Below are positions 11,935 to 55,135 of a stretch of 64,000 nt of DNA, in pieces; within the stretch, counting starts at the first letter, position 1, and each line of letters begins with the position of its first letter. The DNA lies in assembly GCF_011516835.1 (NCBI RefSeq), contig NZ_WOTB01000012.1, positions 62,001-126,000 on the forward strand, read 5' to 3'. The translations under genes were made by a program, and so were the position numbers. This DNA is from Acetobacter musti (GTDB taxonomy: Bacteria > Pseudomonadota > Alphaproteobacteria > Acetobacterales > Acetobacteraceae). Under the pieces are notes generated by a model. It saw only the letters and a program-made list of their open reading frames with translations. It made no database searches and was not told the DNA's origin.

Positions 11935-14331
11935 ATGATGCTTTGCCGGCCCGACGCGCCCTCTCCGGATCATCGGATTTTGTCGTACAGGGCGTCGCGC
12001 CTGCCACTTCTCCGCCTGTTCCGCGTAACTCTTACGGCGTCCACCGCGCTCGCGCTGTATACCGGCGCCGCCTTCGCAGCCGCGCCGGAGGCTGCCGGAT
12101 CATCAGCTCCAAAAGCGACGCCCTCATCCGCCGCATCAGGAAAGATGCCAAAGGCGCAAGCTAAGCTCTCTCATCAGCCTCGTCCGGCAGCGAAAACCGC
12201 ACCGGCATCCGGCAAGGCCGCCGGACAGCGCTATGCCGCCACGGGTATCGAAGAGGTGACGGTCACTTCCCAGAAACGCGCGGCCTCGGCTCAGAAAACG
12301 CCGATTTCCATGAGCGTGTGGAAGGGGAAAGATCTGCAGACGCTGGGCATCAGCAATCTGGAGGCGCTCAGCACCGTGGCGCCGGATATAAATTTCCTCC
12401 AGACGGAAGGGCAGGCGGTGATTACGATCCGTGGCATCTCCAGCCACGACACCAGCGAGATCGGCGATCCCGCCGTGGCGATCGCGACGGACGGTGTTTA
12501 CACAAACCGTGGCTATTCCTTCAACAACAGCTTCTATGACCTTGACCGGATCGAGATCGAGCGCGGCCCGCAGGGCACTCTGAGCGGCAGAAACGCGGTC
12601 GGCGGCGCCATCAATCTGATCACCGCGAAGCCGACAAAGAAGCAGGAAGCAAACGCGAAGGTCGAGTTCGGCAATTACGGCGCCATCAATTCCTGGGCGA
12701 TGGTCAATCAGCCGATCTCCGACAAGGTGCAGATCCGGGCGGCGTTCAACTCAACCCATCACGAAGGCTACCGCGATCTGGGGAAATCAGGATACGGTGA
12801 CGGCGCGAACGATGTCTCCGGCCGCCTGACCCTCGCCTTCCAGCCTTTCAAAGGATTTTCCGGCAATATTTCCTATCAGGGAACCCATATCGGCGGCGCC
12901 GGCCAGGCAGTCTATAACGTGTCGTACCGCTTCGGCGCGGATGGGAACCTGCTGACATCGCAGCCTGACCTGCCCTCCGGCAATCCGCGCCATCTCCCGA
13001 TCCCGACAACGCCGCAGGTTTCCACCCTGGACAATGCCCTGCGCTGGAACTTCGATTATAAACTGCCTTACGTAACGCTGAGCTATCTCGGCGGTTATGA
13101 CGCGACGAATTATAAAGAGGTCAACGATTCCAGTTCGAATGTGTCCTATTCCCGTCAGATCGAAACGTGGAACGCGAACGAGCACCCGAAGACGCAGAAT
13201 CAGGAATTCAGAATTTCGTCCGATGAAAATTACAAATTCTTCTGGACGACCGGGATCTATTATTTCAAGGAAAATAACAGCCTGACCAGTTTCGACGCCA
13301 TCCCGGTGGATGACGCCTGGGGGCGTTCGCTGATCTTCAATTACAATACGCTGGCGCGGTCGCTGGCGTGGTACGCGCATGGCACCTGGAAAATCCTGCC
13401 GACCCTGCGTCTCACCGGCGGCGTCCGGTATAACTGGGATTCAAAAACCCGTTCAGGAAACATCATGTTTCCGACGGACTCATCCAGCCTTCCGTATAAC
13501 TACATCACCTCGCCCAATTACGGGCATGCGTCCTGGACCAAGGCCACATGGCATGCCGGCATCGAGTATGACATTACGCCGCGCAATATGGCGTATTTCA
13601 AGGTCGATACCGGCTACAAACCGGGCGGCTTTACCGATCTGAACGCCTATAATCCGGAAAATGTGCGTTCCTACGAACTCGGTTTCAAAAATCGCTTCTG
13701 GCATAACCGGCTTCAGTTCAATATCTCAGGTTTCTGGGAAGACTATACCGGCCAGCAGGTAAGCCAGATCATCAACAATCTCGGTGGTGGCGGCGAGATT
13801 ATCGACAATGCGGGCTCCAGCCGGATTTATGGCGTTGACCCGAACCTTGTGCTCCAGATCCCGCATGTCGGCCAGTTCGATTTCGATTTCCAGTGGCTGC
13901 ATGCACGGTTCAGAGATTTCTCTGTCGCCGTACAGAAGCCGATGGCTGACGGAACATCCGCGATCATAATGCAGCAGTTTTCCGGCAATCAGCTGCCTCA
14001 GGCGCCGAATTTCTCCGTCGGCGCCGGCTTTACCCGTTATTGGACCGTGCCATCCGGCCGGGTCATGACCCAGATCCGGACCCGGTTCCAGTCCTCAAAC
14101 TATTTCTACTTCACAAACACGGGCGATACGAAGCAGCATGCCTACACCAACACCACGGCGCTGGCGGAATATTTCCCTGATATGGGACACTGGCACGCCC
14201 AGGTCTTCATAAGAAATCTTGAGAATAGCAGAATTTTCACTTACGCGGCGGAAAACGGCTACGCGAACGCGTATACCTATTCCTTTGCCGCCCCGCGCAC
14301 TTTCGGAGGCTCGATCTCGGTCGATTACTGA
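11935..14331 (+). CDS. TonB-dependent outer-membrane receptor (LacI-linked)
   Basis: Imports a substrate across the outer membrane using TonB energy. ATG 11935 (MMLCRPDAP) is chosen because AGGAC lies 8 bases upstream and a signal peptide follows (LPLLRLFRVTLTASTALALYTGAAFA). An Ala/Pro/Lys-rich linker leads to a TonB-box-like IEEVTVTSQKRAAS, the plug domain (LSTVAPDINFLQ, ITIRGISSHD, YDLDRIEIERGPQGTLSGRNAVGGAINLIT) and a 22-strand barrel; 798 residues. The upstream frame back to 11422 runs through the operator and is not coding. Ligand unknown; LacI control suggests a carbohydrate, not a siderophore. The stop overlaps the first bases of an E repeat. Confidence 0.9.
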   Translation: MMLCRPDAPSPDHRILSYRASRLPLLRLFRVTLTASTALALYTGAAFAAAPEAAGSSAPKATPSSAASGKMPKAQAKLSHQPRPAAKTAPASGKAAGQRYAATGIEEVTVTSQKRAASAQKTPISMSVWKGKDLQTLGISNLEALSTVAPDINFLQTEGQAVITIRGISSHDTSEIGDPAVAIATDGVYTNRGYSFNNSFYDLDRIEIERGPQGTLSGRNAVGGAINLITAKPTKKQEANAKVEFGNYGAINSWAMVNQPISDKVQIRAAFNSTHHEGYRDLGKSGYGDGANDVSGRLTLAFQPFKGFSGNISYQGTHIGGAGQAVYNVSYRFGADGNLLTSQPDLPSGNPRHLPIPTTPQVSTLDNALRWNFDYKLPYVTLSYLGGYDATNYKEVNDSSSNVSYSRQIETWNANEHPKTQNQEFRISSDENYKFFWTTGIYYFKENNSLTSFDAIPVDDAWGRSLIFNYNTLARSLAWYAHGTWKILPTLRLTGGVRYNWDSKTRSGNIMFPTDSSSLPYNYITSPNYGHASWTKATWHAGIEYDITPRNMAYFKVDTGYKPGGFTDLNAYNPENVRSYELGFKNRFWHNRLQFNISGFWEDYTGQQVSQIINNLGGGGEIIDNAGSSRIYGVDPNLVLQIPHVGQFDFDFQWLHARFRDFSVAVQKPMADGTSAIIMQQFSGNQLPQAPNFSVGAGFTRYWTVPSGRVMTQIRTRFQSSNYFYFTNTGDTKQHAYTNTTALAEYFPDMGHWHAQVFIRNLENSRIFTYAAENGYANAYTYSFAAPRTFGGSISVDY

Positions 14332-14478
14332 GAGACTGTTTCAGAAGCCTGACCCTGAAACCTCGGGTTAATTACAAAGAAATTTTTGGTGAAGCTTTTT
14401 GAAAAAAGCTTCAGAAGACGCCGCCTTTTTGAAAAAAGGCGGCACCCAAAAACTTTTATTATTTTACAAAAGGCTTTA
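14331..14478 (-). repeat. E repeat (missing its outer left arm)
   Basis: Begins at the stop codon of the receptor gene with AGAGACTGTTTCAGAAGCC (right end, reversed), then the core from TTTTTGGTGAAGC to CGGCACCCAAAAAC. The far arm is lost. Read left arm to right arm, the core is in the common orientation. Confidence 0.85.
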
Positions 14479-14504
14479 AACGGAGCAACCCGCTCCGCTC
14501 CCTG

Positions 14505-14556
14505 ACCGGGATCAAAGGGACCGCGTCCCTTTGTGGGGTTCGGGGCAAAGCCCCGT
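14505..14556. repeat. Twin-hairpin repeat, single unit (B, reversed)
   Basis: CGGGATC, stem CAAAGGGACCGCGTCCCTTTG, then GGGGTTCGGGGCAAAGCCCCG. It lies 3' of the NTF2-like gene. Confidence 0.85.
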
Positions 14557-14602
14557 AACCCACCATGTATCCGGCTCACTCTGCCGGAGCCAGACCCGTC
14601 AT

Positions 14603-15499: not shown

Positions 15500-15669
15500 C
15501 CAGCCGCAAAACGCACCCCGCGACAAACCTTTGATAAAACCAGAAGTTTTTGGGTGCCGCCTTTTTTCAAAAAGGCGGCGTCTTCTGAAGCTTTCTGAAA
15601 AAAGCTTCACCAAAAACTTCTTTATAATTAACCAGAGATTTCAGGACCATGCTTTGAAACAGTCTCTGA
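15500..15669 (+). repeat. E repeat, partial left arm
   Basis: Left arm from CAGCCGCAAAACGCACCCC through TTGATAAAACC, then the core AAGTTTTTGGGTGCCGCC ... TTCACCAAAAACTT in common orientation, then right arm ending GCTTTGAAACAGTCTCTG. It sits 3' of the M1 peptidase gene. Confidence 0.88.
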
Positions 15670-18190: not shown

Positions 18191-18456
18191 CAGAGACCGT
18201 TTCAAAAACCCGCCTGTCAAATCTCCGGCAGATTATAAAAAGTTTTTGGTGAAGCTTTTTTCAAAAAGCTTCAGAGAACGCCACCTTTTTGAAAAAAGGC
18301 GGCACCCAAAAACTTTTACTGTTTTTTATCAATTGCTTATCGCAGAATGCCCTCTGGTCCTGGCTGAAGCGAACAGGTGACTGGGACTCAAAAAACATAA
18401 CACCATCAGTTTGTTATGAGACTTTTTATGCGTTGAAGGCTTTCGAAACAGTCCCT
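18191..18456 (-). repeat. E repeat, full length
   Basis: Both outer ends are present: AGAGACCGTTTCAAAAACC at the left and GGCTTTCGAAACAGTCCCT at the right, 266 bases. It contains the two-hairpin core and the CATAACACCATCAGTTTGTTATG palindrome region near the far end. Whole element in reverse orientation; core in the common orientation. It produces the false N-terminal extension of the DUF72 frame (from 18289). Confidence 0.92.
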
Positions 18457-19299: not shown

Positions 19300-19400
19300 C
19301 AGCCGCAAAGAGTCCCACGATAACGCTATGATAAAAACAAAAGTTTTTGGGTGCCGCCTTTTTCCAAAAAGGCGGCGTCCCCGAAGCTTTCCGAAAAAAC
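19300..19400 (+). repeat. E repeat, right arm lost
   Basis: Left arm remnant (CAGCCGCAAAGAG, CCACGATAA, TGATAAAAAC), then AAGTTTTTGGGTGCCGCC and the first hairpin. The second hairpin is degenerate and the right arm is missing. Common core orientation. Confidence 0.75.
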
Positions 19401-19460
19401 CGTGACCGTATTTCGCAAACAAAAGACAAAGGCCTCTCCCTTCCACCCGCTTCATTAACA

Positions 19461-19513
19461 AACCGGGATCAAAGGGACCGCGTCTCTTTGCGGGGTCCGG
19501 GGCAAAGCCCCGA
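19461..19513. repeat. Twin-hairpin repeat, single unit (B, reversed)
   Basis: AACCGGGATC, stem CAAAGGGACCGCGTCTCTTTG (one mismatch), then GGGGTCCGGGGCAAAGCCCCG, just before the deaminase-like gene. Confidence 0.85.
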
Positions 19514-19581
19514 AAAGCACCCTAGTTTCAGGCCCATTTCAGGCATTGTCTTCCGCTGACGGAACGAACATCATCCGCCCC

Positions 19582-22327: not shown

Positions 22328-22390
22328 AATCCCGCCCGGATCATCGGGCCTGAACCGCGCACCCCGCCCCGGCACCTCCCCGGGTTCAGC

Positions 22391-22444
22391 AAACCGGGAT
22401 CAAAGGGACCGCGTCCCTTTGCGGGGCACGGGGCAAAGCTCCGA
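22391..22444. repeat. Twin-hairpin repeat, single unit (B, reversed)
   Basis: AAACCGGGATC, stem CAAAGGGACCGCGTCCCTTTG, then GCGGGGCACGGGGCAAAGC. Followed by TTGCAAAGCATAAAGACGCC, a lead-in module that also precedes D units. Confidence 0.85.
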
Positions 22445-22527
22445 AAATCCGCTTCGCAGTTCTTTGCAAAGCATAAAGACGCCCGGCTTCAGGAGGGCGT
22501 TTATGTCTTTTGCAAGCAGGAGACAGA

Positions 22528-22640
22528 GCAGGGCTCTGCCCTGCACCCGGAAGGGATAACATATCCCTTCACCCATTTAATTTAACAGTCCGGGATCAAA
22601 GGGGCCGCGCCCCTTTGTGGGGTTCGGGGCAAAGCCCTGA
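22528..22640. repeat. Twin-hairpin repeat, convergent dimer (D then B)
   Basis: D half: GCAGGGCTCTGCCCTGC, then GAAGGGATAACATATCCCTTC. Linker ACCCATTTAATTTAACAG. B half reversed: CAAAGGGGCCGCGCCCCTTTG, GGGGTTCGGGGCAAAGCCCTG. Beyond it GCAAAGCATACAAAC occurs twice (near 22664 and 22722). The 22328-22850 spacer holds only these repeats and the mntH promoter area. Confidence 0.9.
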
Positions 22641-22783
22641 AAAGCCATCCTGTCTGTAACTGCAAAGCATACAAACGTCTTCAGAAGACCTCCGGCAAAG
22701 CCAGTCCTCCCGGCCGGCCCCGCAAAGCATACAAACCGCCTCCCCGAAGCGGCTCGCGCAGGAGTGTTTTCATAAAGCAATTT

Positions 22784-24164: not shown

Positions 24165-24250
24165 ACCGGACCTCATTCCCCCTGACCTTGTCAGTCGTCA
24201 TGGATTCCGGAGGAGTGCTCCGGGCTTTCCCGCAGTATGGGAAGCAGGTT

Positions 24251-24303
24251 TTCGGGGCTTTGCCCCGCACCCCACAAAGGGACACGGTCCCTTTGATCCC
24301 GGT
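24251..24303. repeat. Twin-hairpin repeat, single unit (B)
   Basis: TTCGGGGCTTTGCCCCGCACCCC, then CAAAGGGACACGGTCCCTTTG and ATCCCGG. Lies 3' of mntH. Confidence 0.85.
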
Positions 24304-24359
24304 CTGTTCAATAAGCGGGGGTGGGACGGAGTCCTGCCTTCCGTCTGCAAAAGATATTA

Positions 24360-24616
24360 AGAGACTGTTTCAAAAGCCTTAAATGCACAAAAAAAACATA
24401 ACAAACTGATGTTGTTATGTTTTTTACCCGCTCATTCGCTCGCCTCAGCCAGCTTCAAAAAACACCCCACGACAAACCATTGATAAAAAACAAAAGTTTT
24501 TGGGTGCCGCCTTTTTTAAAAAGGCGGCGTTTTCTGAAGCATCCTGAAAACCTTCACCGGAAACGTCTTTATCATTGGACCGGAGATTTCACGATCAGGC
24601 TTCTGAAACAGTCCCT
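24360..24616 (+). repeat. E repeat, full length
   Basis: 257 bases with both ends: AGAGACTGTTTCAAAAGCC ... GGCTTCTGAAACAGTCCCT. Left arm carries CATAACAAACTGATGTTGTTATG. Core in the common orientation, second hairpin degenerate. Between mntH and the copper locus. Confidence 0.92.
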
Positions 24617-25218: not shown

Positions 25219-27549
25219 ATGGGCTTTTCACACTGCACCGCCCGCCGGTTCTTCGGCGCGACGGCGGGCGCCATAGCATTTCTCTGCGCGGGCACACATG
25301 CCGCGACACCGCAGAAACGCGCTCTCCCCCGGTCACGCCAGCACAGGGCGGATACGACGGTTCCGGCCCGAAAGCCGCCCGTGACCGAAAACATCCTCAT
25401 CACCGGGATCAGCCACGCCCCGGCCACCATCAGACCGGCCGGGCAGACAACCTACAGTTCCGACCGGAGCAGCTTCGGAAACCAGCTCGGCCAGACGGTC
25501 GCGGACATGGCCGTCACCATCCCCGGCGTGAGCTTCACCCAGGGCAATGGCCCGCGCGATACGGTGGTGTCGGTGCGCGGCTCAGGCGACCGCCAGTCCT
25601 ACGGCCTGAAAAACCTGCAGATCCTCGAAGACGGCTTTCCGATGACCCAGCCCGACGGAACCGCCCGCGCCGATCTGATCGACCCCCACGCCTATGAAGG
25701 CATGGACGTCTTCGAAGGACCGGCCTCCACCGTCTACGGCAATTACGCCGTCAACGGCGCCATCAGCTTCCGCACCCGCAAAGGCGCCGACATCCACGGA
25801 CTCGAAATCGGTTCCGATTTCGGCAGCTACGGCATGTTCAATAATTACGCCACGCTCGGCCTCGGAAATCGCAGCTATGACCTCATGGTCTTCGCCAGCG
25901 ACGTCCGGGGCAACGGCTTCATCGCCAGCAGCCGCTACAACACCTCAACCGAAAATGTCCGTCTGCGCGTCAGCCTGACGCCGTCCGATCGCCTCGTCCT
26001 GAAATTCGTGAACAACGTGACAGACGCCTTCCTGCCGGTCCGCCTGTCGCTGAACCAGTACCGCGCCAACCCTTATCAGCAGGGCTGCTATAACGCGGCC
26101 AGCGCGGCAGCGGGCTGCGCGTCCGTCAGCCTTTTCGTCAACGGCCGCTACGGCGCGAAAGAGGCCATGAGCCCCGAAGCCGCCGGCCTCGGCCGCTTCG
26201 ACCGCCGCACCATCGTCGGCCTGCGCTGGGAACACGACTTCGACAGCCACACGACATGGCGCAACCAGTTCACCTATGACCAGCGCCACGTCGATCAGCC
26301 CACATCCCCGACCTCCTTCGCCGGGCCATACAATTCTTACAATGTCAGCAGCGATATCACGAACCAGGTCCGCATCGGCGCTACGTCACTCGAAACCTTC
26401 GGCGGCATAAGCTTCGATGACCTCGATTACGGATACCAGACCTGCAACATCATGCCCCTGGGCGGCGCGACCTGCGGCGCGATGAGTTCTGAATCCTATG
26501 GCCATCAGTGGAACCTGGGCGCCCGCTTTCAGGAAGACTGGCATTTCGCACCGAACTGGCATGCGGTCGCCGGACTTGGGGGCACCTATTCGGATATCGG
26601 CGCCATGGAAGCGGTTTACAACTATTCCGCAGCCGGCAGAACACAGCAATACATCACCGCCAATCGCTTTTTCTTCAATCTCGCACCCGAAGGCGCCCTG
26701 ATCTACTCCCCGTCGAAAGACTGGACCCTGCATGCGCGGATCGGCACCGCATACGGAACGCCATCATCATCGAATCTTTTCATCACACCACAGGGCCAGT
26801 ACGGAAATAACACGCAGCTGAAGAGCCAGAGCAGCACAGGCGTGGATGTCGGCGCGGACTGGCATCCGGACGCGAACAGTCACATTCAGATAACAGGCTT
26901 TTACGAATTCTACAGAAATGAACTCGTCAGCCAGTCCGCCGGCGTCAACACCGTAGGCGCCTACACTTTCAACGCTCCGGCCTCACAGCATCGCGGCATC
27001 GTCCTGGGGGCGGAGTGGAAGCCTTTTCCCAAAAACTTCCCCGGCGGCCGGATAAAGCTAAGCTATACCTACGATAATCAGATCTACACAAATTATACCG
27101 AAGTCCTTTCTGACAGCACGATCTCCCGCAGCTTCAGCCGGAAGGGCAACGCCATCCCTGGCGTCATCCCGAACTTCCTTAATGCCCGTTTCCTGTATGA
27201 CCAGCCCGCCGGCCCGCTGGAAGGCCTCGGCGGATACGCGGAAGTCACCTGGCGCGACTCTTACTGGCTGGATAACGCCAGTAAACTCAAAGCCCCAGGC
27301 TACGCGCTGCTGAATCTCGAACTGCATTACGACCCCCCGGCGCGTTACGGCTGGGCTCATCGTCTGCACTGGTATTTCGAAGTGCAGAACGTCGCGAATA
27401 CAAACTGGATCGCCGGCGCCACGAACATCAGCGATATACTCCTCGCCAGCGGGCGACAGGCCGGCGCCGGAACACTCATGAACAGCACTGGCTCAGTCTA
27501 TGCCGGATCGCCACGGGCATATTCCGGCGGCGTACGGATCAGGCTTTAG
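25219..27549 (+). CDS. TonB-dependent receptor, probably for copper
   Basis: About 776 residues. ATG 25219 gives a signal peptide (FFGATAGAIAFLCAGTHA); the GTG at 25174 would add 15 residues. Plug domain: VADMAVTIPGVSFTQGNGPRDTVVSVRGSGDRQSYGLKNLQILEDGFPMTQPDG, then MDVFEGPASTVYGNYAVNGAISFRTRKG. The barrel ends YSGGVRIRL. Two Cys pairs in predicted loops (GCYNAASAAAGC and CNIMPLGGATC) may be disulfides. The order DUF2946, receptor, Met-rich PepSY protein, SCO resembles OprC/NosA-type copper receptor loci; substrate is inferred from that. The stop codon abuts an E repeat. Confidence 0.85.
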   Translation: MGFSHCTARRFFGATAGAIAFLCAGTHAATPQKRALPRSRQHRADTTVPARKPPVTENILITGISHAPATIRPAGQTTYSSDRSSFGNQLGQTVADMAVTIPGVSFTQGNGPRDTVVSVRGSGDRQSYGLKNLQILEDGFPMTQPDGTARADLIDPHAYEGMDVFEGPASTVYGNYAVNGAISFRTRKGADIHGLEIGSDFGSYGMFNNYATLGLGNRSYDLMVFASDVRGNGFIASSRYNTSTENVRLRVSLTPSDRLVLKFVNNVTDAFLPVRLSLNQYRANPYQQGCYNAASAAAGCASVSLFVNGRYGAKEAMSPEAAGLGRFDRRTIVGLRWEHDFDSHTTWRNQFTYDQRHVDQPTSPTSFAGPYNSYNVSSDITNQVRIGATSLETFGGISFDDLDYGYQTCNIMPLGGATCGAMSSESYGHQWNLGARFQEDWHFAPNWHAVAGLGGTYSDIGAMEAVYNYSAAGRTQQYITANRFFFNLAPEGALIYSPSKDWTLHARIGTAYGTPSSSNLFITPQGQYGNNTQLKSQSSTGVDVGADWHPDANSHIQITGFYEFYRNELVSQSAGVNTVGAYTFNAPASQHRGIVLGAEWKPFPKNFPGGRIKLSYTYDNQIYTNYTEVLSDSTISRSFSRKGNAIPGVIPNFLNARFLYDQPAGPLEGLGGYAEVTWRDSYWLDNASKLKAPGYALLNLELHYDPPARYGWAHRLHWYFEVQNVANTNWIAGATNISDILLASGRQAGAGTLMNSTGSVYAGSPRAYSGGVRIRL

Positions 27550-27682
27550 GGGCTGTTTCAGAAGAAGCCTCATGAAACCGCCTTTAAATTACAAAAAAGC
27601 TTCATAAGACGACGAATTTTTTAAAAAAGCGGCACCCAAAAACTTCTTTTTTATCCCTGCGCGGCGTTTGAACCAGTCTCTC
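27547..27682 (-). repeat. E repeat, short form with both ends
   Basis: Starts at the receptor stop codon (AGGGGCTGTTTCAGAAG) and ends GAACCAGTCTCT, 136 bases. Part of the core and most of the left arm are deleted. It separates the receptor from the PepSY gene, so co-transcription would have to read through its hairpins. Confidence 0.82.
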
Positions 27683-29787: not shown

Positions 29788-29921
29788 AAAAGCCGTATAG
29801 CAAAAACGGACCTGTTCCGCAGCACATCACAGGAACCCGGTTCCCCATTATTTCCGGAACGGCCAGACCGTCACTTTCCAGTCCCGCTCATCTGCCCGCC
29901 ACAAAGAACATTTCACAATAA

Positions 29922-30048
29922 ATCCCTGATAAAAACAGAAATTTCCACGGAAGTTTTTTTCAAAAAGCTTCATAAGACGAAGTCTTTTTAAAAAAGGCCG
30001 CGCCCAAAACTTCTTTATGATCTGCTGTAATCTATTGAAACAATCCTC
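29922..30048 (+). repeat. E repeat with inverted core
   Basis: Left-arm end CCCTGATAAAAACAG, then the core starting with the AAGCTTC hairpin and ending GGCCGCGCCCAAAACTTC, then right arm CTTTATGATCTGCTG ... TTGAAACAATCCTC. Here the core lies opposite to the common orientation relative to the arms. Degenerate copy. Confidence 0.78.
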
Positions 30049-30095
30049 AATACAGGCCTGTATAAACCTCCCGGATCGCGGAGAAAGGGCGATGA

Positions 30096-31563: not shown

Positions 31564-32652
31564 ATGACGAAACCGCCGCAGGACGGAGCGGACCGCTCCG
31601 CCGACACCACGCGGGCCGTCCTCGTCGCGCTCCTCGCCAGCCTCATCGTCATCAGCGCGATCTGGATTCTCAGACCCTTCCTGCCGGCAACCATCTGGGC
31701 CGTGACCATCGGCGTCACCACATGGCCCCTGCTCCTGAGACTCCAGGCCGTCCTCGGACACAGCCGGGGCCTCGCCGTCTCCGTGACGATCCTCATTGCC
31801 CTCCTGATCTTCGTCCTGCCCCTCTGGCTCGCCATCACCACCGTCGTCCGGCACGCAGGCGATCTCGGCATGATGCTCTCATCCGCCGCGGCTTTCCGCC
31901 TCCCGCCGGAACCGGAATGGCTGCGTCACCTCCCGCTGATCGGCCCCCATGCCGGCTCCGTGTGGGAAAAAGCCCAGCACATGAAGCTCCCGGAAGTCGT
32001 CAGCCAGGTCATCCCCTCTCCCGAATATCTCATCCGGAGCTTCCTCTCCTACGCCGGAAGCTTCAGCATGCTGGCCGTCCAGTTCCTGCTCACCCTCGTC
32101 ATCCTCGGCGTGCTGCTCATGAAAGCCGAAGCGGCGACAGCCGCGGCGGAACATCTCGTCACCACCCTCGCCGGAGAACGCGGCCGGGACATGCTGATGC
32201 TGGCCGGCCACACTATCCGCGGCGTCGCCTTCGGCGTCACCGTCACCGCCATCGTCGAGTCCGCCGTCGCCGGCCTCGGACTGAAAATCGCCGCCGTCCC
32301 GCTGGCCAGCATCCTCACCGCCGTCACCTTCATGGCCTGCCTGCTCCAGGCCGGTCCGGGCGTCACACTGATCCCCGCCGTCATCTGGGTCTATTTCGAT
32401 CGCGGCCTGGTTCCGGCCATCATCCTGCCGCTGATCACCGTCGTCACCATCGTCATCGATAACGTCCTGCGCCCGTATCTCATCCGCAAACAGGCCGACA
32501 TCCCCCTCGTGCTCATCATGCTCGGCGTGATCGGCGGACTGAGCGGACTGGGACTCGTGGGCATCTTCGTCGGCCCCCTCGTGCTCTCCGTGGCCTATAC
32601 GCTCACCAGACACTGGGTGGCCGACTCCCGGAAAACCGTCACTCCACAATAA
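31564..32652 (+). CDS. AI-2E family permease (DUF20)
   Basis: 362 residues, inner membrane, about eight helices: VLVALLASLIVISAIWILRPFLPATIWAVTIGVTTWPLLL at the start, then LAVSVTILIALLIFVLPLWLAIT. A soluble stretch at ~105-165 is followed by a block of helices ending GLSGLGLVGIFVGPLVLSVAYTL, the most conserved AI-2E motif (GIiGLFIGPvvL). AGGAAGG precedes the ATG at 31564 by 7 bases; the frame is open back to 31504. Family members export varied small molecules, and the autoinducer-2 name does not define the substrate. Single gene, followed by an E repeat. Confidence 0.9.
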   Translation: MTKPPQDGADRSADTTRAVLVALLASLIVISAIWILRPFLPATIWAVTIGVTTWPLLLRLQAVLGHSRGLAVSVTILIALLIFVLPLWLAITTVVRHAGDLGMMLSSAAAFRLPPEPEWLRHLPLIGPHAGSVWEKAQHMKLPEVVSQVIPSPEYLIRSFLSYAGSFSMLAVQFLLTLVILGVLLMKAEAATAAAEHLVTTLAGERGRDMLMLAGHTIRGVAFGVTVTAIVESAVAGLGLKIAAVPLASILTAVTFMACLLQAGPGVTLIPAVIWVYFDRGLVPAIILPLITVVTIVIDNVLRPYLIRKQADIPLVLIMLGVIGGLSGLGLVGIFVGPLVLSVAYTLTRHWVADSRKTVTPQ

Positions 32653-32654
32653 AA

Positions 32655-32788
32655 CCCCGATAAAAACAGAAGTTTCCGGGTGCCGCCTTTTTTAAAAAGG
32701 TGGCGTCTTCTGAAGCTTTTTGAAAAAAGCTTCACCAAAAACTTCTTTATAATTTACAGCAGATTCCACGGGAAGATTTTTGAATCTG
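32655..32788 (+). repeat. E repeat, right end diverged
   Basis: CCGATAAAAACAG, core GGGTGCCGCC ... GAAGCTTTTTGAAAAAAGC ... CCAAAAACTTC in common orientation, then TTTATAATTTACAGCAGATT. The terminal inverted end is no longer clear. Confidence 0.85.
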
Positions 32789-33243
32789 CCCCCGATCCAC
32801 GTCCGGACGAAAAGCTCAGCCCAGGACAGGCCTGAAGGATCGGGGGAAAGAAAAACACCTTTATGAGATAAAAGATTTCCCGAACTGATCAGGATCGCTC
32901 TCCTGCCGCCAGGGCCGTCCGACAGACACCTGGCCAATGCCGGGTCAAACACACGCCGAAGCCCGCAAACCCCACCGCAACCTGCCCCGGAGCCGGCGAC
33001 AGAAAACAGACACGCCCCGGCAACCAGTAAAATCAAAGAAACCTCCCCGGACCGGACCAGCCGGAACTTCGCCCCGAACCCGACAAAAGGACCCCCCTGC
33101 AGCCACGCGGCAGAGACACCTGCCTGCCCGCAAATCAGACGCTCCGGGCAGGCCGCCGGTACAGATCAGGGCCGGTTTTTCGCGATTACCGCTGTAAAAC
33201 GACCGGAATCGCATTTATCGGCAGCATTTCGCCCCATCGGTAT
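32789..33243. other. Intergenic region upstream of argD
   Basis: About 455 bases without supported gene. CCCCCGATC (near 32790) pairs with GATCGGGGG (near 32837) to form a long-loop hairpin. No family E or TH repeat is present. Confidence 0.4.
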
Positions 33244-36041: not shown

Positions 36042-36199
36042 TTCACGGTAAGTCTTTGATAGGAACTGACAGAAGTTTTTGGGTGCCGCCTTTTTTTCAA
36101 AAAGGCGGCGTCTTCTGAAGCTTTTTGAAAAAAGCTTCACCAAAAACTTCTTTGTAATTTACACGAGGTTTCACAGGCGGCCTTTTGAAACCGCCTCTG
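36042..36199 (+). repeat. E repeat
   Basis: Left-arm remnant CTTTGATAGGAACTGACAG, core AAGTTTTTGGGTGCCGCC ... CACCAAAAACTTC in common orientation, right arm TTTGTAATTTACACGAGG and end GGCCTTTTGAAACCGCCTCTG. Lies between the acidic orf and hslO. Confidence 0.88.
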
Positions 36200-37327: not shown

Positions 37328-37590
37328 AGAGGCTGTTTCAAAAGCCTTCCTGTGAAATCGCCTTTAAATCATAAAGAAATTTTTGGTGAAGCTTTTTTAA
37401 AAGCTTCAGAATACGCCGCCTTTTGGGAAAAGGCGGCACCCAAAAACTTTTATTGTTTTTTATCAAAGGTTTTTCGTGGTGCGCTTTTTTTGAGACTGAC
37501 TGAGATGAGCGGATAAATGGGACAAAGAACATAATATTATTCGTATGTTATGAAAGGCTTTATCCTGGTGAGGCTTTTGAAACAGTCTCT
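37328..37590 (-). repeat. E repeat, full length
   Basis: 263 bases: AGAGGCTGTTTCAAAAGCC at one end, AGGCTTTTGAAACAGTCTCT at the other. Whole element reversed; read from left arm to right arm the core is in the common orientation. The left-arm palindrome is ACATAATATTATTCGTATGTTATG. Confidence 0.93.
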
Positions 37591-37729: not shown

Positions 37730-38932
37730 ATGCGCTCCGGGCGTGACGGACAGGATGAGCCGGGAGGTGGAGCGATCAGTTCGGTAATGTCAGGAGCGCC
37801 GGCATCGGCACACAGGCCGCCACGCGATGACGCGGACACGTTCGTCATCCGCATCGGAAACCACGCGTTCCCCCTTCGCATTCGCGGTCAGCCGATCCGC
37901 AGTCTCTATCCCGGCTGGCGCATCCACGCGCTGCATGTGACTCTTCTGCCCATGGCCGTCGCGCAGCTGCGTAACGACGCCGGCGCGGAAGCATACTGGA
38001 TCTTCGACAGCGCCCTCGATTATCGGGCCAGCCTGTTCGACGATCTGGACGAGGAAGAACAGAGCGCCATGGTCGATGCCGTCGCGCCGTTTTTTAGTTC
38101 GCTCGTCCGGTCTTCGCTGGAAGCGGTAAAGCAGAGCCCGAGTGAAAACGCGGAGCTGATCCGCAATCTCGGCGCCCCCCTGCGTGACGCCCTTCTCGCC
38201 GCCTGGCTCGGGCGCTTTCCGCCCACCCGCTGCGTCACGCCACGGGCTCTGCCGGAGACGACCCTGTCCTTTCCCGACGATGTGATGCCCCTCGCGCCGA
38301 AAGCGCTGACGCCTCTCCTGTCCGCGGCCGCCGGACTCACGGAACAGCCCCTGCCGGTCATTCTCTCGCCCTGGGGCCATGCCGTCCTGCGCGGCCATCA
38401 TGTCCTGAAAGACACCGACCTCAGCCTGACCCGTTTCGCCGACCCCCAGGCGAATATCGTCCTGTATCTCGGCACAGCCCGCCTGTCCCCGGAGAGTGAC
38501 GAAACGACGCCGGTACTCTGCTGCCCGCAGCTCGACCTGATCGTGACAGATCTGCCATCCGACCGGGCCGGGCAGATCCCGCAACGGCTCCTGTCCCGCT
38601 TCATGGCCGACCCGACGCATGTGTCCGCCGCCCCGGCTGCGCTCCTGATGCAGTTCGGTGCCGGAGGAAATTTCACGCTCGGATCGGCCTCCTCCCTGCC
38701 GGTCCGGCCCCCGTCGCTGCCCGGCAACTGGCCGGCCGCCCCGGCTGCCGCACCGGGCCACCCCAGGCCGGACACATCCGGGGGACAGCAGGACGCCGCC
38801 CGCTTCCCGGACGCACAGGTGACCGATGCCTTCCGGACAAATCCGGCCAGCCCGCCACCAGACGACAGTCCCGAAGAAAAACAGGAACCCGCCCCGCCCG
38901 GGATCAAAGAACACCCCACGATAACCACCTGA
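37730..38932 (+). CDS. Uncharacterised protein with Pro-rich C-terminus
   Basis: Up to 400 residues; M20 at 37787 (MSGAPASAHRPP) is an alternative start behind a distant GGAGG. Residues ~35-310 look globular: TFVIRIGNHAFPLRIRGQPIRSLYPGWRIHALHV, then a helical acidic stretch (FDDLDEEEQSAMVDAVAPFFSSLVRSSLEAV) and a second beta-rich part. From ~315 it is Pro/Ala/Gly/Asp-rich and probably disordered. No signal peptide or membrane helix. I do not recognise a family. The last nine codons (IKEHPTITT) and the stop derive from the left arm of the following E repeat. Confidence 0.75.
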   Translation: MRSGRDGQDEPGGGAISSVMSGAPASAHRPPRDDADTFVIRIGNHAFPLRIRGQPIRSLYPGWRIHALHVTLLPMAVAQLRNDAGAEAYWIFDSALDYRASLFDDLDEEEQSAMVDAVAPFFSSLVRSSLEAVKQSPSENAELIRNLGAPLRDALLAAWLGRFPPTRCVTPRALPETTLSFPDDVMPLAPKALTPLLSAAAGLTEQPLPVILSPWGHAVLRGHHVLKDTDLSLTRFADPQANIVLYLGTARLSPESDETTPVLCCPQLDLIVTDLPSDRAGQIPQRLLSRFMADPTHVSAAPAALLMQFGAGGNFTLGSASSLPVRPPSLPGNWPAAPAAAPGHPRPDTSGGQQDAARFPDAQVTDAFRTNPASPPPDDSPEEKQEPAPPGIKEHPTITT

Positions 38933-39065
38933 TAAAAACAGAAGTTTTTGGTGAAGCTTTTTTCAAAAAGCTTCAGAAGACGCCGCCTTTTTGAAAAAAG
39001 GCGGCACCCAAAAACTTTTTATAATTACATTGCGGTTTCACGGGCAGGCTTTTGAAACAGTGTCT
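38908..39065 (+). repeat. E repeat with inverted core
   Basis: Left arm AACACCCCACGATAACC, CTGATAAAAACAG; then AAGTTTTTGGTGAAGC first and GGCGGCACCCAAAAACTT last, the inverse of the common core; then right arm TTTATAATTACATTGCGG and GGCTTTTGAAACAGTGTCTG. Its start overlaps the end of the preceding gene. Confidence 0.92.
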
Positions 39066-40268: not shown

Positions 40269-40311
40269 AGGGGTGTTCAGCCTTCTGAACACCCCTCTGA
40301 AAATATTTTTT
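40269..40311 (+). terminator. Intrinsic terminator after the lipoprotein gene
   Basis: Perfect 12-base-pair stem AGGGGTGTTCAG / CTGAACACCCCT with loop CCTT, six bases past the stop codon, followed by CTGAAAATATTTTTTG. The T run is a few bases from the stem. Confidence 0.8.
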
Positions 40312-40334
40312 GCAAAATGAGCGGAGCAGGTTTT

Positions 40335-40387
40335 CCGGGCTCTGCCCCGAACCCTGCAAAGGGACACAGTCCCTTTGATCCCGGTTT
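40335..40387. repeat. Twin-hairpin repeat, single unit (B)
   Basis: CCGGGCTCTGCCCCGAACCC, then GCAAAGGGACACAGTCCCTTTG and ATCCCGG. Immediately before an E repeat. Confidence 0.85.
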
Positions 40388-40390
40388 GCC

Positions 40391-40654
40391 GGAGGCTGTT
40401 TCAAAAGCCGGCAATGCACAAAAACTACCATAACAAACTGATGATGTTATGGTCTTTAAGACCCGACACCTGTGCGCTTCATGCAGGATCAGAAAACCCT
40501 TCACGACAGATCCCTGATAAAAAACAGAAGTTTTTGGTGAAGCTTTTTTCAAAAAGCTTCAGAGAACGCCGCCTTTTTGAAAAAAAGGCGGCACCCAAAA
40601 ACTTCTATATAATTTACAGCAGATTTCACAGGAAAGCTTCTGAAACAGTCTCTT
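40391..40654 (+). repeat. E repeat, full length, inverted core
   Basis: 264 bases with both ends: GGAGGCTGTTTCAAAAGCC ... GCTTCTGAAACAGTCTCT. Left arm has CCATAACAAACTGATGATGTTATGG; right arm CTATATAATTTACAGCAG. Between them the core runs GGTGAAGC first, GCCGCC last: opposite to the copies at 24360 and 41920, which have the same arms. Confidence 0.95.
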
Positions 40655-41114
40655 AAAATAAATGAGGTGGTAAGGAAGTCATGTGCAGCATGTCCGCGCG
40701 TCGAGCCTCCTCCCAAGTGTGGCGCAGAGTCCGGCTCCTGTTTGCAAAACCCATAAATGTCCTCAGAATAATGGTTTCTCCGATCCGCCCGTCCGCCCGG
40801 CACCCGGTCGCGCCCGCAACCGGATACGGAAAGATAAAACAGTCACCCCGAGGACCGGAATTCGTGATGCCCCTGGAGCGCTCCATTTCGCGATTATTTC
40901 CACGATGTCATCCCCGCCGACAAAATAAGATTATCCATGATATAAATTGTATGATATAAACGTAATCAGCAGCAGAAATCTCAGAACACACTGATCCGAA
41001 TATTTGTTTCTGCCGCCTGGCTTCCATACGTCCCAATATTTTCCGTGCGAATCATCGATCGCGCAGTCCGGTCGTATGCCGTCTGCCGATCCGCATTCCA
41101 GAAGGAATCGCCTC
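40655..41114. other. Intergenic stretch before a small basic protein
   Basis: About 460 bases. AT-richer between 40920 and 41000, where the promoter of the next gene may lie. Frames at 40681-40959 show no family resemblance and are not called. Confidence 0.4.
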
Positions 41115-41249
41115 ATGGCCAAAGGTCAGAAACGCGGCAACCGCGAAATCAAAAAACCGAAAGCCGCTAAAAAGCCCAGCGTCGAGGCGCAAAACGCCCT
41201 GTTGCAGCTTCAGGGCCGGATGCCGCTTTCAAAAGCCGGGAAGAAATAA
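41115..41249 (+). CDS. Small basic protein (MAKGQ-type)
   Basis: 44 residues, MAKGQKRGNREIKKPKAAKKP..., very rich in Lys and Arg, with a short helical tail ending in LSKAGKK. GAAGGA precedes the ATG by 8 bases. The opening MAKGQ.RGNRE.KKPK is a pattern I recognise from small uncharacterised proteins annotated across Proteobacteria. Basic charge suggests nucleic-acid or ribosome binding, but this is inference. Confidence 0.75.
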   Translation: MAKGQKRGNREIKKPKAAKKPSVEAQNALLQLQGRMPLSKAGKK

Positions 41250-41416
41250 CCCGGTATTGCATGACCTCCGCGCCGGAACGTCACTGCAACCACTCATGAG
41301 CAGTCACTCAGAGGAGCAGATCAGGGGTCAGGTTCCGACCCCGTATACCGGAACGACCCGACGTAAAGCGGCTGTTTTTCAGCAGCACAGGCGTCGGCGG
41401 AACAGGATAACAGTTC

Positions 41417-41776
41417 ATGACATCGACGCTACCGACCTCAGAACAGACGGAGACAGGGCCAATCCCTTTCGAAATCACCGCCGGCACCCGCCGCATCAGC
41501 TGCGGCGTCTCGGCTGAGGCGCTGGACGCCGCCGCCGGTCTCAGATCCCCCTCAACCGAAGCGGCGCGACGACAGTCGTTCAACCGCTTCCGGGTTCTGA
41601 TTCATGCCGCGGCAAAACTGAAGCTCGACCGGTGTGGAAAAATTCCCGACGGCATGATCATCCTGGGCAGCGACGATCTGCGCCACGTACCGGCGGAAAA
41701 GGGAATGCCAATCTTCGGCGGCATCCCACGAAAGCCGGCTGTGTCCCTGAGCGAACCATCGCCGGTGACAGCATAG
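41417..41776 (+). CDS. DUF1488-like protein
   Basis: 119 residues. The core PIPFEITAGTRRISCGVSAEALDAAAG followed by ARRQSFNRFRVLIHAAAKLKLDR and DGMIILGSDDLR fits DUF1488: a beta hairpin with a C.VS.EAL motif, then a helix (F..n...I...A..Kl) and a final strand with D. AGGAT lies 9 bases before the ATG. Cytoplasmic; function of the family is unknown. The C-terminal 25 residues extend beyond the usual domain. Confidence 0.72.
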   Translation: MTSTLPTSEQTETGPIPFEITAGTRRISCGVSAEALDAAAGLRSPSTEAARRQSFNRFRVLIHAAAKLKLDRCGKIPDGMIILGSDDLRHVPAEKGMPIFGGIPRKPAVSLSEPSPVTA

Positions 41777-41856
41777 CTTCGTATCAGGATACAAAATAAT
41801 CGGAATAATCGAAGATTTTTTCAGAGGGATTCATATATTTTGTAAACGGCAGACGG

Positions 41857-41910
41857 AACAGGGCGCTGCCCTGCACCCGGAGGGAGGCGCGGACCCCTTC
41901 ACCCCTTTTG
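41857..41910. repeat. Twin-hairpin repeat, single unit (D)
   Basis: ACAGGGCGCTGCCCTGC, then GGAGGGAGGCGCGGACCCCTTC and ACCCCTTTTG. The left half of the second stem is imperfect here. Confidence 0.8.
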
Positions 41911-41919
41911 ACTGGCGTC

Positions 41920-42164
41920 AGAGACTGTTTAAAAAGTCTTCAATGCACAAAATTCTCATAACAAACAGATGATGTTATGTTTTTTGAGTTCCGGCCATCT
42001 GCTTACCTCAGCCAGGTTCAGAGAGCACTTTGTGATAAAAAACAAAAGTTTTTGGGTGCCGCCTTTTTTCAAAAAGGCGGCGTTCTCTGAAGCTTTTTGA
42101 AAAAAGCTTCACCAAAAATTTCTTTATGATTCAGAGAAGATCTCACAGGAACCCTCTGAAAACG
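41920..42164 (+). repeat. E repeat, nearly full length
   Basis: Left end AGAGACTGTTTAAAAAGTC, then CATAACAAACAGATGATGTTATG, left-arm tail TGTGATAAAAAACA, core GGGTGCCGCC ... CACCAAAAATTTC in common orientation, right arm TTTATGATTC; the right end is diverged (AACCCTCTGAAAACGG). Confidence 0.9.
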
Positions 42165-42293
42165 GATAAGCTCCGAACTCTCATGCCCCGGCTCTCAAGC
42201 CCGAAAAGGCATCCGGCCCCCTTTGCAAACTATGCTGTTAAACAAATCAGCATTCAGAGTCGTCTGCGGCCTTCAAAACCAGCTCAGCCCGTT

Positions 42294-42701
42294 TCAGGAA
42301 GCTCGTCGCCCCGGACCAGAAACCCGCGCAAACTGAGCTCCTCCGCCGTCTCCGCCCGCTTTCCGCACAGGAGCCTTCCGCGTCACGGCAACCACCGTTT
42401 CCTCCCCCGCCGCGCCCCGCAGCAGATCAAGCAGAATCCGTGTCCTGCGCCGCTCCATGTCGTTCGAAAAATCGTAGTTCATGGAACGGGAATCCCGCTT
42501 CGCCGCAATAATCCCCGCCCGCCGCAGCGCTCCAAGCTGCTGGCTCAGCGTCGGCTGCCCGATCCCCGTCCGCGCCTCGATATCGCTGACCGCCAGAGTC
42601 CCTTCCTGCAGCAGGTCCAGAATCATCAGCCGCTGCGGCTGCGCCAGAAGCCGCAAACGCTCCGTCAGCAGCTTCGCATCCTCCGCCGTCAGCCGCGTCA
42701 T
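42294..42701 (-). CDS. ArsR-family regulator coupled to peroxiredoxin
   Basis: About 135 residues from ATG 42701, which overlaps the peroxiredoxin stop (ATGA). A winged helix covers TERLRLLAQPQRLMILDLLQEGTLAVSDIEARTGIGQPTLSQQLGALRRAGIIAAKRDSRSMNY. The best-known metal- and persulfide-sensing ArsR proteins use cysteines; none is present after the chosen start, so the signal is sensed another way. Ends in a basic disordered tail (RKAPVRKAGGDGGG). Because it is second in the operon, it probably regulates the pair itself. Target unknown. Confidence 0.88.
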   Translation of the reverse strand: MTRLTAEDAKLLTERLRLLAQPQRLMILDLLQEGTLAVSDIEARTGIGQPTLSQQLGALRRAGIIAAKRDSRSMNYDFSNDMERRRTRILLDLLRGAAGEETVVAVTRKAPVRKAGGDGGGAQFARVSGPGRRAS

Positions 42702-43357: not shown

Positions 43358-43489
43358 GATCACCCTTTGCCACAGAACAGTCCCGAAAATCAGTCTTTCG
43401 GAATTAACTAAACCGGCAAAGTGTCATCCGGCAAGCGGGAACTCCGGCCCGGAAGGCCCCGCCCGAAGGCCCGGAGAGGGCAGGGATTA

Positions 43490-43604
43490 CGGGGCTCTGC
43501 CCCGAACCCCGTAAAGGAACGCAGTCCCTTTGATCCCGATTTATTCAATTAAAAGGGGTGAAGGGGGTCGCGCCCCCTTCCGGGTGCAGGGCAGAGCCCT
43601 GCCT
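43490..43604. repeat. Twin-hairpin repeat, convergent dimer (B then D)
   Basis: B half: GGGGCTCTGCCCCGAACCCC and TAAAGGAACGCAGTCCCTTTG; linker TTTATTCAATTAAAAG; D half reversed: GAAGGGGGTCGCGCCCCCTTC and GCAGGGCAGAGCCCTGC. Same pairing of subfamilies as at 22.5 and 55.8 kb, in opposite order. Lies 3' of guaA. Confidence 0.9.
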
Positions 43605-54071: not shown

Positions 54072-54087
54072 TGGAGCGATCGCTCCA
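54072..54087. promoter_or_regulatory. TetR operator
   Basis: TGGAGCGATCGCTCCA is a perfect 16-base palindrome in the divergent spacer. A second half-site (ATCGCTCCA, 54020-54028) overlaps the regulator's own start codon. The paired sites suggest autoregulation and control of the SDR gene. Confidence 0.85.
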
Positions 54088-54166
54088 CATTTTAACCCGT
54101 CGGTTCCCGCAAACCTGGCCTGAGGCACACAGATGCTTCCCGGCCCGTACAGACAGGCATACATCA

Positions 54167-54913
54167 ATGAACAGGCTTTCAGGAAAAGTCGCAATCGTGA
54201 CCGGCGCCTCCAAAGGGATTGGCGCCGGCATTGCCAGAGCCCTCGCCGCGGAAGGAGCCGCGGTCATCGTCAATTACGCGTCCAGCAAAGCGGGGGCGGA
54301 CGCGGTGGTCACAGCAATCACGGACAGCGGCGGCAAAGCCTTCGCGGTTCAGGGAGACGTCTCGCGCAGGGCCGATGCCCAGGCCCTCGTCGACGCCGCG
54401 ATCAGTCAGTTCGGGCGGCTGGACATTCTGGTCAACAATTCCGGCGTCTATGAGTTCGCGTCGATCGAAGAGATCACCGAAGAGCATTTCCACCGTCTCT
54501 TCGATGTCAACGTGCTTGGCACGCTGCTGACGACGCAGGCCGCGGTGAAGCATCTGGAAGGCGGAGGCAGCGTCATCAACATCAGCTCCGTTGTCTCGCG
54601 CGTCACGCCACCTAACTCCGCCGTCTACACAGGAACGAAGGGCGCAATCGACGCCATCACCGGTTCCCTCGCGCGCGAACTGGGGCCAAAGCAGATTCGG
54701 GTCAACGCGATCAATCCGGGCCTGATCGAAACCGAAGGCACCAGAGCCGCCAGTGTCGTCGGCTCGGAGATGGAGCAGGCCATCATCGCGCAGACGCCGC
54801 TGGGGCGCAGCGGTCAGGTGCAGGATATCGCGCCGCTCGCAGTCTTCCTGGCATCCGATGACGCCCGCTGGCTGACCGGCGAAACACTGATTGCTTCCGG
54901 CGGTCTGCGCTGA
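54167..54913 (+). CDS. Short-chain dehydrogenase/reductase
   Basis: 248 residues, classical SDR. Cofactor motif TGASKGIGAGIA, NNSGVYEF (NNAG variant), active-site Ser in INISSVVSRV, Tyr and Lys in Y-T-G-T-K, and ending LTGETLIASGGLR as in FabG-like enzymes. ATG 54167 is chosen; the frame is open further back through the TetR operator. Probably NAD(P)-dependent reduction of a carbonyl compound; substrate unknown. The adjacent TetR gene suggests induction by a toxic aldehyde, ketone or xenobiotic, as inference from context. Confidence 0.92.
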   Translation: MNRLSGKVAIVTGASKGIGAGIARALAAEGAAVIVNYASSKAGADAVVTAITDSGGKAFAVQGDVSRRADAQALVDAAISQFGRLDILVNNSGVYEFASIEEITEEHFHRLFDVNVLGTLLTTQAAVKHLEGGGSVINISSVVSRVTPPNSAVYTGTKGAIDAITGSLARELGPKQIRVNAINPGLIETEGTRAASVVGSEMEQAIIAQTPLGRSGQVQDIAPLAVFLASDDARWLTGETLIASGGLR

Positions 54914-54974
54914 TTTTCATCGAGCATATCATGTGATTTCACCGGGTCGGAAATCTGCCGGTTTCTTCCCGGAG

Positions 54975-55135
54975 AGCGCTTCACGCCAGGCCGTTGAGGA
55001 AACAATAAAAGTTTCCGGGTGCCGCTTTTTTTCAAAAAGGCGGCGTCTTCTGAAGCTTTTTGAAAAAAGCTTCACCAAAAACTTTTTTATAATTTAAGGG
55101 AGGTTTTACGGGCAGGCTTTTGGGACAGCCTCTTA
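54975..55135 (+). repeat. E repeat
   Basis: Left arm worn (TTGAGGAAACAATAA), core AAGTTTCCGGGTGCCGC ... CACCAAAAACTTT in common orientation, right arm TTTATAATTTAAGGGAGG and end GGCTTTTGGGACAGCCTCT. It follows the SDR gene. Confidence 0.85.

Follow-up and report, generated by a model that had tools for sequence, protein, structure and literature searches.

Orthologous loci of acetic acid bacteria hold a dispersed two-hairpin core in opposite orientations

The 64,000-nt window analysed here (Acetobacter musti, contig NZ_WOTB01000012.1, positions 62,001-126,000) contains fourteen copies of a dispersed repeat, family E, which resembles a miniature inverted-repeat transposable element (MITE). A reading made from the sequence only had found the core of this repeat flipped in three copies although both arms kept their order, and had suggested inversion by a recombinase, strand exchange at a cruciform or template switching. 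The questions raised by this locus are whether the core turns in place, whether it belongs to the repeat at all, and what may turn it.

Core orientation at orthologous loci

When the copies were read side by side, family E was seen to be one asymmetric element of about 260 bp, found on either strand. It consists of an inverted end, a short arm (about 30 bp past the end, ending ..ATAAAG), a 75-bp core (consensus AAGTTTTTGGTGAAGCTTTTTTCAAAAAGCTTCAGAAGACGCCGCCTTTTTGAAAAAAGGCGGCACCCAAAAACTT), a long arm (about 110 bp, starting ..CTTTTATTGTTTTTTATC) and the second inverted end. The window holds 14 occurrences of the inverted end GAGACTGTTTCAAAAGCC at up to 3 mismatches (0.01 expected from shuffles) and the whole genome 51 at up to 1 mismatch, where the reversed control pattern gave 0. 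The core-end motif AAGTTTTTGG occurs 25 times in the window at up to 1 mismatch (3.15 expected). The core is bounded by short inverted arms, AAGTTTTTGG, which extend outward to ATAAAAG in some copies. As a single strand it is predicted to fold into a three-way junction (clover) with a closing stem P1 (inverted repeat of 10-16 bp), a GAAGC hairpin (P2) and a GCC hairpin (P3), and this clover was predicted in five of five single strands (z -6.7 to -10.0). In state A the GAAGC hairpin lies at the short arm; in state B the core is flipped and the GAAGC hairpin lies at the long arm.

For covariation, 66 of the 118 listed cores were aligned, orthologs included. Changes on both sides of a pair were counted in 32 cells (31 in P3, 1 in P2 and 0 in P1), compared to a mean of 10.3 after shuffling and at most 7 for slid structures. 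As a separate observation, the core L242 (G041) has a closing stem, AAGTCTTCGG / CCGAAGACTT, that is fully paired with changes on both sides.

Loci of related bacteria were retrieved by match to the core, so decayed and homodimeric cores are under-sampled. A uniform table was made of 31 loci compared in two or more genomes (79 cross-genome pairs), with cores of at least 40 bits and matching flanks of at least 60 bp on both sides; G013, G017, G041 and G057 are of the same genus as the window genome. Left outside the table were L343/L380 (a flip with one flank), L308/L341 (one-sided), L281 (18 bits) and L248 (31 bits, same state as L199), and a same-genome pair under two labels (L197 = L314) was uncounted. 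The two members were in opposite orientation in 22 pairs (including two L277 pairs) and in the same orientation in 57; the opposite pairs belong to 9 of the 31 loci.

The 30-bp flanks of the nine discordant loci were then compared in both ways. Five loci are clean inversions, two (L247 and L283) are probable, L143 is unclear by this measure and L277 shows no core flip. At the clean loci the flank match was 0.70-0.90 as inversion versus 0.03-0.60 as same orientation; in 58 same-orientation pairs the values were 0.39 as inversion and 0.78 as same. L277 of G057 was dropped as a core flip, as its near flanks match those of L210 and L231 neither way (0.08-0.37 as inversion, 0.35-0.38 as same).

The first clean locus is that of Gluconobacter oxydans NBRC 14819 (L354) and Gluconobacter sp. 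Dm-62 (L370), with flanks of 90% identity. The junctions ..GAATAA/AAGTTTTTGG and CCAAAAACTT/TTATTCCAAAATCC.. read through in both strains and the core is turned. When this Gluconobacter locus was searched across 299 genomes of the family, the one full-length match was its own genome. The second and third (L317/L323, 94%; L339/L376, 93%) separate Komagataeibacter xylinus K2G30 from strain CGMCC 21569. At L339/L376, K2G30 agrees with NBRC 15237, and CGMCC 21569 agrees with K. melomenusus and K. nataicola in the other state; a second core, 1.6 kb away, has the same state in all five genomes. The fourth is L195 of G057 versus four genomes, and the flip is placed on the G057 lineage because G057 differs from all four others. 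The fifth is L199 of G057 versus L200 and L227.

The sequence-only reading had placed the switch points at the inner inverted repeat. The break points of the clean loci do coincide with the P1 arms, and the flanks are continuous at all five. The outcome that would speak against inversion, namely that no locus is ever found in both states, was looked for, and orthologous loci of related species were found to hold opposite orientations.

One member of the L143 locus (with L144 and L193) has a different structure. In L280 of G057 a near-perfect palindrome made of two GCC halves (AAGTTTTTGGGTGCCGCCTTTTTGAAAAAAGGCGGCACCCAAAAACCT) takes the place of the core; it stands in the state of L143 and is not turned.

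The rate of change appears to be low. Between G017 and G059 (94% flank identity) 13 loci were in the same orientation and none in the opposite one. Grouped by flank identity, opposite pairs (which are non-independent) made up 11 of 50 at 91-98%, 10 of 25 at 86-91% and 1 of 4 at 70-86%. Two strains of K. saccharivorans had the same orientation at one plasmid locus. On the basis of these three comparisons the flips are slow, on the scale of species divergence, and as far as could be tested there is no fast phase switch.

The core, its arms and its copies in Acetobacter musti

A MITE-type end was found within 160 bp of the core at 3 of 84 cores in the genomes of eight relatives (1 with shuffled flanks) and at 14 of 102 cores in a second set of relatives (again 1). 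The cores of the clean loci have no such end within that distance, with the exception of K. nataicola L457 at the L339 locus, which is left out of the case for inversion. The core is not part of the MITE, and the MITE is one carrier of it. The claim that an invertible core belongs to the MITE-like repeat E therefore holds for the inversion and fails for the ownership, because the core stands without MITE ends at most loci of the relatives. At that locus the sister species carry a bare core; in L457 it is accompanied by a MITE-type end (2 mismatches of 14).

Among the matches listed, cores occur in Acetobacter, Komagataeibacter, Novacetimonas, Gluconacetobacter and Gluconobacter. At least 111 core matches were obtained in G003 and at least 143-150 in each of five Komagataeibacter genomes (a core may be counted on each strand), and about 10 to 25 distinct cores are among the matches listed in each of G013, G017, G041 and G059. 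Each half of the core is a variant of the same unit, AAGTTTTTGG(G)TG with a hairpin after it, and the two stand inverted to each other. Lone half units, either a GTCGCC hairpin with CCCAAAAACTT or AAGTTTTTGG with a GAAGC hairpin, were also seen (L260-L264 and L266 of G018, L239 and L241 of G017, and also in G059).

The gene context was surveyed with an open reading frame (ORF) heuristic for cores of at least 55 bits that have an ORF within 800 bp on each side. Among 132 such cores, 67 had convergent, 57 tandem and 8 divergent neighbours, compared to 70 convergent, 273 tandem and 89 divergent among 432 other neighbouring ORF pairs. The enrichment of convergent pairs gave a Fisher p of 2e-14, which is optimistic because orthologs were unmerged. 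In total, 124 of the 132 cores follow the end of at least one ORF and none lies inside an ORF; the median distance from core to stop codon is 28 bp. A/U-rich flanks are located outside the closing stem. Judged by its position, the core is probably a bidirectional transcription terminator or 3'-end stabiliser.

No Y1/RAYT transposase (PF01797) was found in the ten genomes searched (control genomes were positive in 5 of 14), which rules out mobility of the core by a repetitive extragenic palindrome (REP)/RAYT system. We read the core as a REPIN-like, terminator-like element without a RAYT.

In the A. musti genome, a covariance model of the core gave at least 150 scored matches, 148 of them with flanks. 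Scoring core orientation against arms over all these copies, a check for which the sequence-only reading had called, assigned 123 copies to state A and 15 to state B and left 10 undecided. The two arm profiles were trained on 58 A-like copies only. When the GCC side of the core was scored as the short arm, 11 of the 15 B copies reached 20 to 33 bits and the highest A copy 11.3; the remaining four B copies reached 5.6 to 11.6 bits, and their call rests on the sum of the two sides. Inverted ends at the swapped distances (46-48 bp and 127-140 bp) were both present in 4 of the 15 B copies, on the short side only in 4 and on neither side in 7. State B is no threshold effect. Two separate families with unrelated arms could be ruled out, because B copies match the same two arm profiles, short and long, as A copies do.

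An arm match to another copy was obtained for 14 of the 15 B copies, and in 11 of these the best match is an A copy. Copies C18:57355 and C20:2748 (both B) are mutual best matches and a clear sister pair; the best match of the B copy C8:40877 is another B copy, C19:76475. On the arm tree, 14 state changes are required for the 15 B copies (shuffled mean 14.4), and this tree is nearly unresolved, with one starred branch among 135. B arms are scattered in this way among A arms, and the flips do not appear to follow a single arm subtype. A single flipped founder that spread is not supported by the arm tree, yet might hold alongside it. The MITE copies gave no case of a locus in both states; G049 (80%) and G044 (77%), which are the closest genomes by Hsp33, had no core match and hence no synteny with these copies.

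Two further observations concern the halves of the core in this genome. In some copies (e.g. C11:2787, C50:628, C2:197328 and C18:10327) the short-arm half is decayed and the GCC half is largely intact. No palindromes of two GCC halves were found in the genome at up to 3 mismatches.

Most of the window copies are in state A, and the three that the sequence-only reading had named as flipped (cores 29939-30012, 38942-39017 and 40528-40604), and no others, are in state B with arms in order. The cores at 38942 and 40528 are unambiguous; that at 29939 is degenerate with a weak short-arm side (6.4 bits) and was additionally judged by eye. The window copies are as follows (position, strand, description).

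14332..14470, plus strand: E copy, state A; core 14380-14455; no long-arm end found
15517..15666, minus strand: E copy, state A; core 15544-15619; short-side inverted end 15649-15666
18193..18455, plus strand: E copy, state A, both inverted ends; core 18240-18315
19314..19400, minus strand: truncated E copy, GAAGC half degenerate, undecided in the scoring; core 19341-19400
24361..24615, minus strand: E copy, state A, both inverted ends, GAAGC half degenerate; core 24494-24566
27549..27680, plus strand: degenerate E copy, both hairpins decayed; identified by eye and outside the genome-wide count
29902..30060, minus strand: degenerate E copy, state B; core 29939-30012
32643..32793, minus strand: E copy, state A; core 32670-32744
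36050..36197, minus strand: E copy, state A; core 36073-36149; short-side inverted end 36180-36197
37329..37589, plus strand: E copy, state A, both inverted ends, identical TCA flanks; core 37377-37449
38905..39064, minus strand: E copy, state B; core 38942-39017; short-side inverted end 39047-39064; predicted single-strand clover fold
40392..40652, minus strand: E copy, state B, both inverted ends; core 40528-40604; predicted clover fold
41921..42165, minus strand: E copy, state A; core 42046-42121; long-side inverted end 41921-41938
54982..55132, minus strand: E copy, state A; core 55008-55084; short-side inverted end 55115-55132

Another dispersed hairpin repeat, GGGATCAAAGGGACC..GGTCCCTTTG..GGGGCAAAGCCCCG, adjoins E copies several times. 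It lies at 14480-14561, 19437-19518, 22368-22449, 22564-22645, 24247-24323, 40329-40405, 43484-43560 and 55821-55902. A comparison of window positions 36000-42300 with Rfam gave six matches, none above the gathering threshold.

The arms were characterized from the copies with both inverted ends (at most 6 mismatches of 18), which are 49 of the 138 classed copies (45 A and 4 B). Identical 3-bp flanks were present in 9 of the 45 A copies (8 of TNA type) and in none of the 4 B copies, and TNA was present at both ends in 25 of 45 and 0 of 4, respectively. We take TNA targets to point to the IS5 family. The genome contains 49 transposase matches to PF13340 (IS5-type), some of them partial. Given the identical flanks of TNA type and the numerous IS5-type transposases, an IS5-family MITE is the most likely identity of the arms. 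Family E shares inverted ends of about 18 bp and TNA targets with such MITEs; it differs from them in that its core also exists without the MITE and that no intact insertion sequence (IS) with exactly these ends was present among the 20 of 49 PF13340 loci examined.

The nearest pair of ends was seen at L287, a locus fetched for an IS5-type transposase, where GAGCCTGTTTGGAAA and TTTCCAAACAGGCTC bound positions 951-1833 (883 bp) and are related, not identical, to the MITE ends; L289 has one matching end. Three plasmid records (Novacetimonas hansenii, Komagataeibacter nataicola and K. saccharivorans) contain the composite in shorter form; state A is clear in two of them and weakly indicated in the third. 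The A. musti genome, at 4.7 Mb, is large for the group (48 others: 1.5-4.6 Mb).

What may turn the core

On balance we lean towards the view that the core is an independent element which was captured by an IS5-type MITE and is inverted in place, nearly neutrally, by interstrand template switching. In the lineage leading to A. musti, the MITE would have captured and multiplied the dispersed two-hairpin element behind stop codons. During replication, the growing strand, having copied one P1 arm, would pair with the second arm on the opposite parental strand, copy the core backwards and then return, and all sequence between the arms would thereby be inverted in place. The internal hairpins would shorten the effective gap between the P1 arms. 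Being almost symmetric and serving the genes to either side, the element may be flipped with nearly neutral effect, and the flips would accumulate between species.

Of the three mechanisms proposed earlier, template switching fits best, because the break points lie at the arms, the flanks are continuous, one hairpin covaries and the GCC palindrome of L280 is of the kind expected from fold-back copying. As far as the accessible parts of the two papers go, spacers between inverted repeats are inverted by interstrand template switching in yeast when the arms exceed 9 bp (PMC8604942), and loops of rRNA hairpins, including bacterial ones, are inverted as well (PMC8794818).

Several observations weigh against this explanation. 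The spacer here is about 55 nt, compared to 2-5 bp in yeast and mostly 4, up to 8 nt in the rRNA loops, according to the same parts of those papers (PMC8604942, PMC8794818). The number of covarying pairs is six, which was reached in 50 of 500 shuffles, and no P1 pair has changes on both sides. Perfect P1 arms were present in 8 of 15 B copies versus 36 of 123 A copies (p = 0.08; rank test p = 0.36), so that the prediction of better P1 arms in flipped copies was borne out weakly at most. The 30-bp flanks of L143 and L247 are ambiguous (0.50-0.63 as inversion versus 0.23-0.60 as same), and no flip was seen within a species, where one locus was looked at.

The core sequences also weigh partly on that side. 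They were compared over their variable part, with hand-made pair lists unmatched for flank identity, and paralogs were those among the cores collected rather than whole-genome sets. Mean core identity was 0.83 in flipped orthologs (18 pairs) and 0.89 in unflipped ones (23 pairs). Closer paralogs than the flipped ortholog were found for L199 (3 and 5 of 14), L339/L456 (8 of 13) and L247 (9 of 10 and 8 of 10). In the case of L339/L376 and L454/L376, the flipped ortholog is as distant (0.76) as the mean paralog (0.76), and 9 and 10 of 17 paralogs are closer.

These numbers are what would be expected if another core of the same genome had overwritten the locus in reverse, through gene conversion or P1-primed template switching. 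The many copies (at least 148 in this genome, apart from the Komagataeibacter matches given above) favour such ectopic copying too, which would be primed in short P1 arms that resemble one another in most copies. Nevertheless, no paralog is closer than the flipped ortholog at L317/L323 (17 paralogs) or at L143 versus L144 and L193 (19 and 15), and few are at L343/L380 (1 of 13), L155/L283 (1 of 14) and L195 (one or two of 14). The pair L354/L370 shares a core variant, GGCGGAACCC, which none of the others among the 66 aligned cores has, as expected if the same sequence was turned. Moreover, the unflipped core of the L339/L376 pair is equally diverged (0.78, with 5 of 17 paralogs closer), so part of the dissimilarity at that locus is due to fast evolution of the core. 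A local origin of the turned sequence is favoured at L317, L143, L343, L283 and, through the shared variant, at L354/L370, but not at L339/L376 and L247, with L199 and L195 in between. Inversion at the locus and copying from another core may operate side by side. As the general explanation we consider ectopic copying doubtful, although it deserves to be taken seriously.

Three other explanations appear improbable. A site-specific recombinase of the serine or tyrosine type may recognise the arms and invert the core, each locus being a switch, and the break points at a constant short inverted repeat agree with this. Serine recombinases, the type which the search covered, were found in 11 of 11 genomes, so the absence of an enzyme is no argument here and this too counts against template switching. 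A recombinase is nevertheless less likely because the rate is slow (0 of 13 loci between G017 and G059, and the same state in both K. saccharivorans strains) and the arms are short and simple. Several genera show flips, and no recombinase gene was linked to the element. We know of no invertase whose sites resemble arms of 10-16 bp around a 75-bp segment.

The core might also be mobile by itself, by excision and re-insertion or by two independent insertions at a preferred site, and its dispersal at many sites with and without MITE arms would suit this idea. Such movement is hard to reconcile with flanks that are continuous to the junction at five loci, with no target duplication in those alignments, and with the lack of a Y1/RAYT transposase in the ten genomes.

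It is similarly improbable that the clover fold itself is the target of a cellular system, such as a recombinase or nuclease specific for this structure that would open the cruciform and re-join it turned. The ends of parvoviruses, with their flip and flop forms, are a model for a cruciform that is opened and re-joined turned. If such a system existed, each genome of an acetic acid bacterium would contain from tens to more than 100 slow two-state terminators.

Insertion or inversion of the whole MITE or a larger stretch, with core and arms turning together, is likely at L277, where arm-like sequence flanks the core on the same side in both (by eye; no end at up to 3 of 14 mismatches), but is refuted at the five clean loci, where the near flanks keep their order and the core alone turns, and sits badly with the B copies of A. 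musti, which keep their arm order; as a general account it is scarcely credible. Equally far-fetched is misassembly of a palindromic repeat: some of the genomes are draft assemblies in tens to hundreds of contigs, but the discordant loci include pairs in which both assemblies have 1 to 5 contigs (G013, G017, G041) and the states recur in separate assemblies (K2G30 and NBRC 15237; CGMCC 21569 and K. melomenusus).

Comparison with known systems

The sequence-only reading knew of no described element with this property. This must be divided, as the class of mutation is known from yeast, rRNA and plastids, and the bacterial family in which it recurs at many sites appears to be new. In the open-licence literature we found no report on such an element in acetic acid bacteria, nor on recurrent inversion of a dispersed bacterial repeat.

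Four known systems were compared. REPIN/BIME elements, as described in the accessible text of PMC3116915, likewise consist of two related palindromic half units in inverted order and are intergenic and dispersed, and hairpin and clover folds are discussed for them. They differ in the half-unit sequence and in the RAYT, which was absent in 10 of 10 genomes here, and in-place inversion is unmentioned in that text. Invertons are segments between inverted repeats that occur in both orientations, as the core does between genomes; unlike them, the core is very short, is slow, has many sites and has no recombinase known to belong to it. The slow change between genomes speaks against recombinase-driven presence of both orientations in one culture. 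Chloroplast flip-flop inversions affect 5-50 bp between inverted repeats of 11-24 bp that form stem-loops (Kim and Lee 2005, as cited in the accessible part of PMC12928735). They concern plastid loci and no dispersed bacterial family, and are ascribed there to homologous recombination (PMC12928735).

The fourth system is spacer inversion by template switching, as presented in the accessible parts of PMC8604942 (yeast) and PMC8794818 (rRNA). The inversion is in place with unchanged flanks, the arms are about 10 bp or more, the events are recurrent and reversible over evolutionary time, and the arms are homogenised. In the present data, 5 clean loci of 31 show an in-place inversion bounded by inverted repeats with continuous flanks. 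The difference lies in the spacer of about 55 nt with two hairpins and in the dispersed bacterial repeat family to which it belongs. Template-switch inversions are usually single events, inferred one by one, whereas the core family offers many replicate sites, with tens to more than 100 copies per genome that are orthologous between species and have a binary, readable state. It would allow the frequency of events to be measured, together with the effects of stem length, spacer folding and replication direction and the share of local and distant donors. When a small intergenic repeat differs in orientation between two bacteria, this does not have to reflect separate insertions, and the core may serve as a natural record of a rarely seen DNA copying error.

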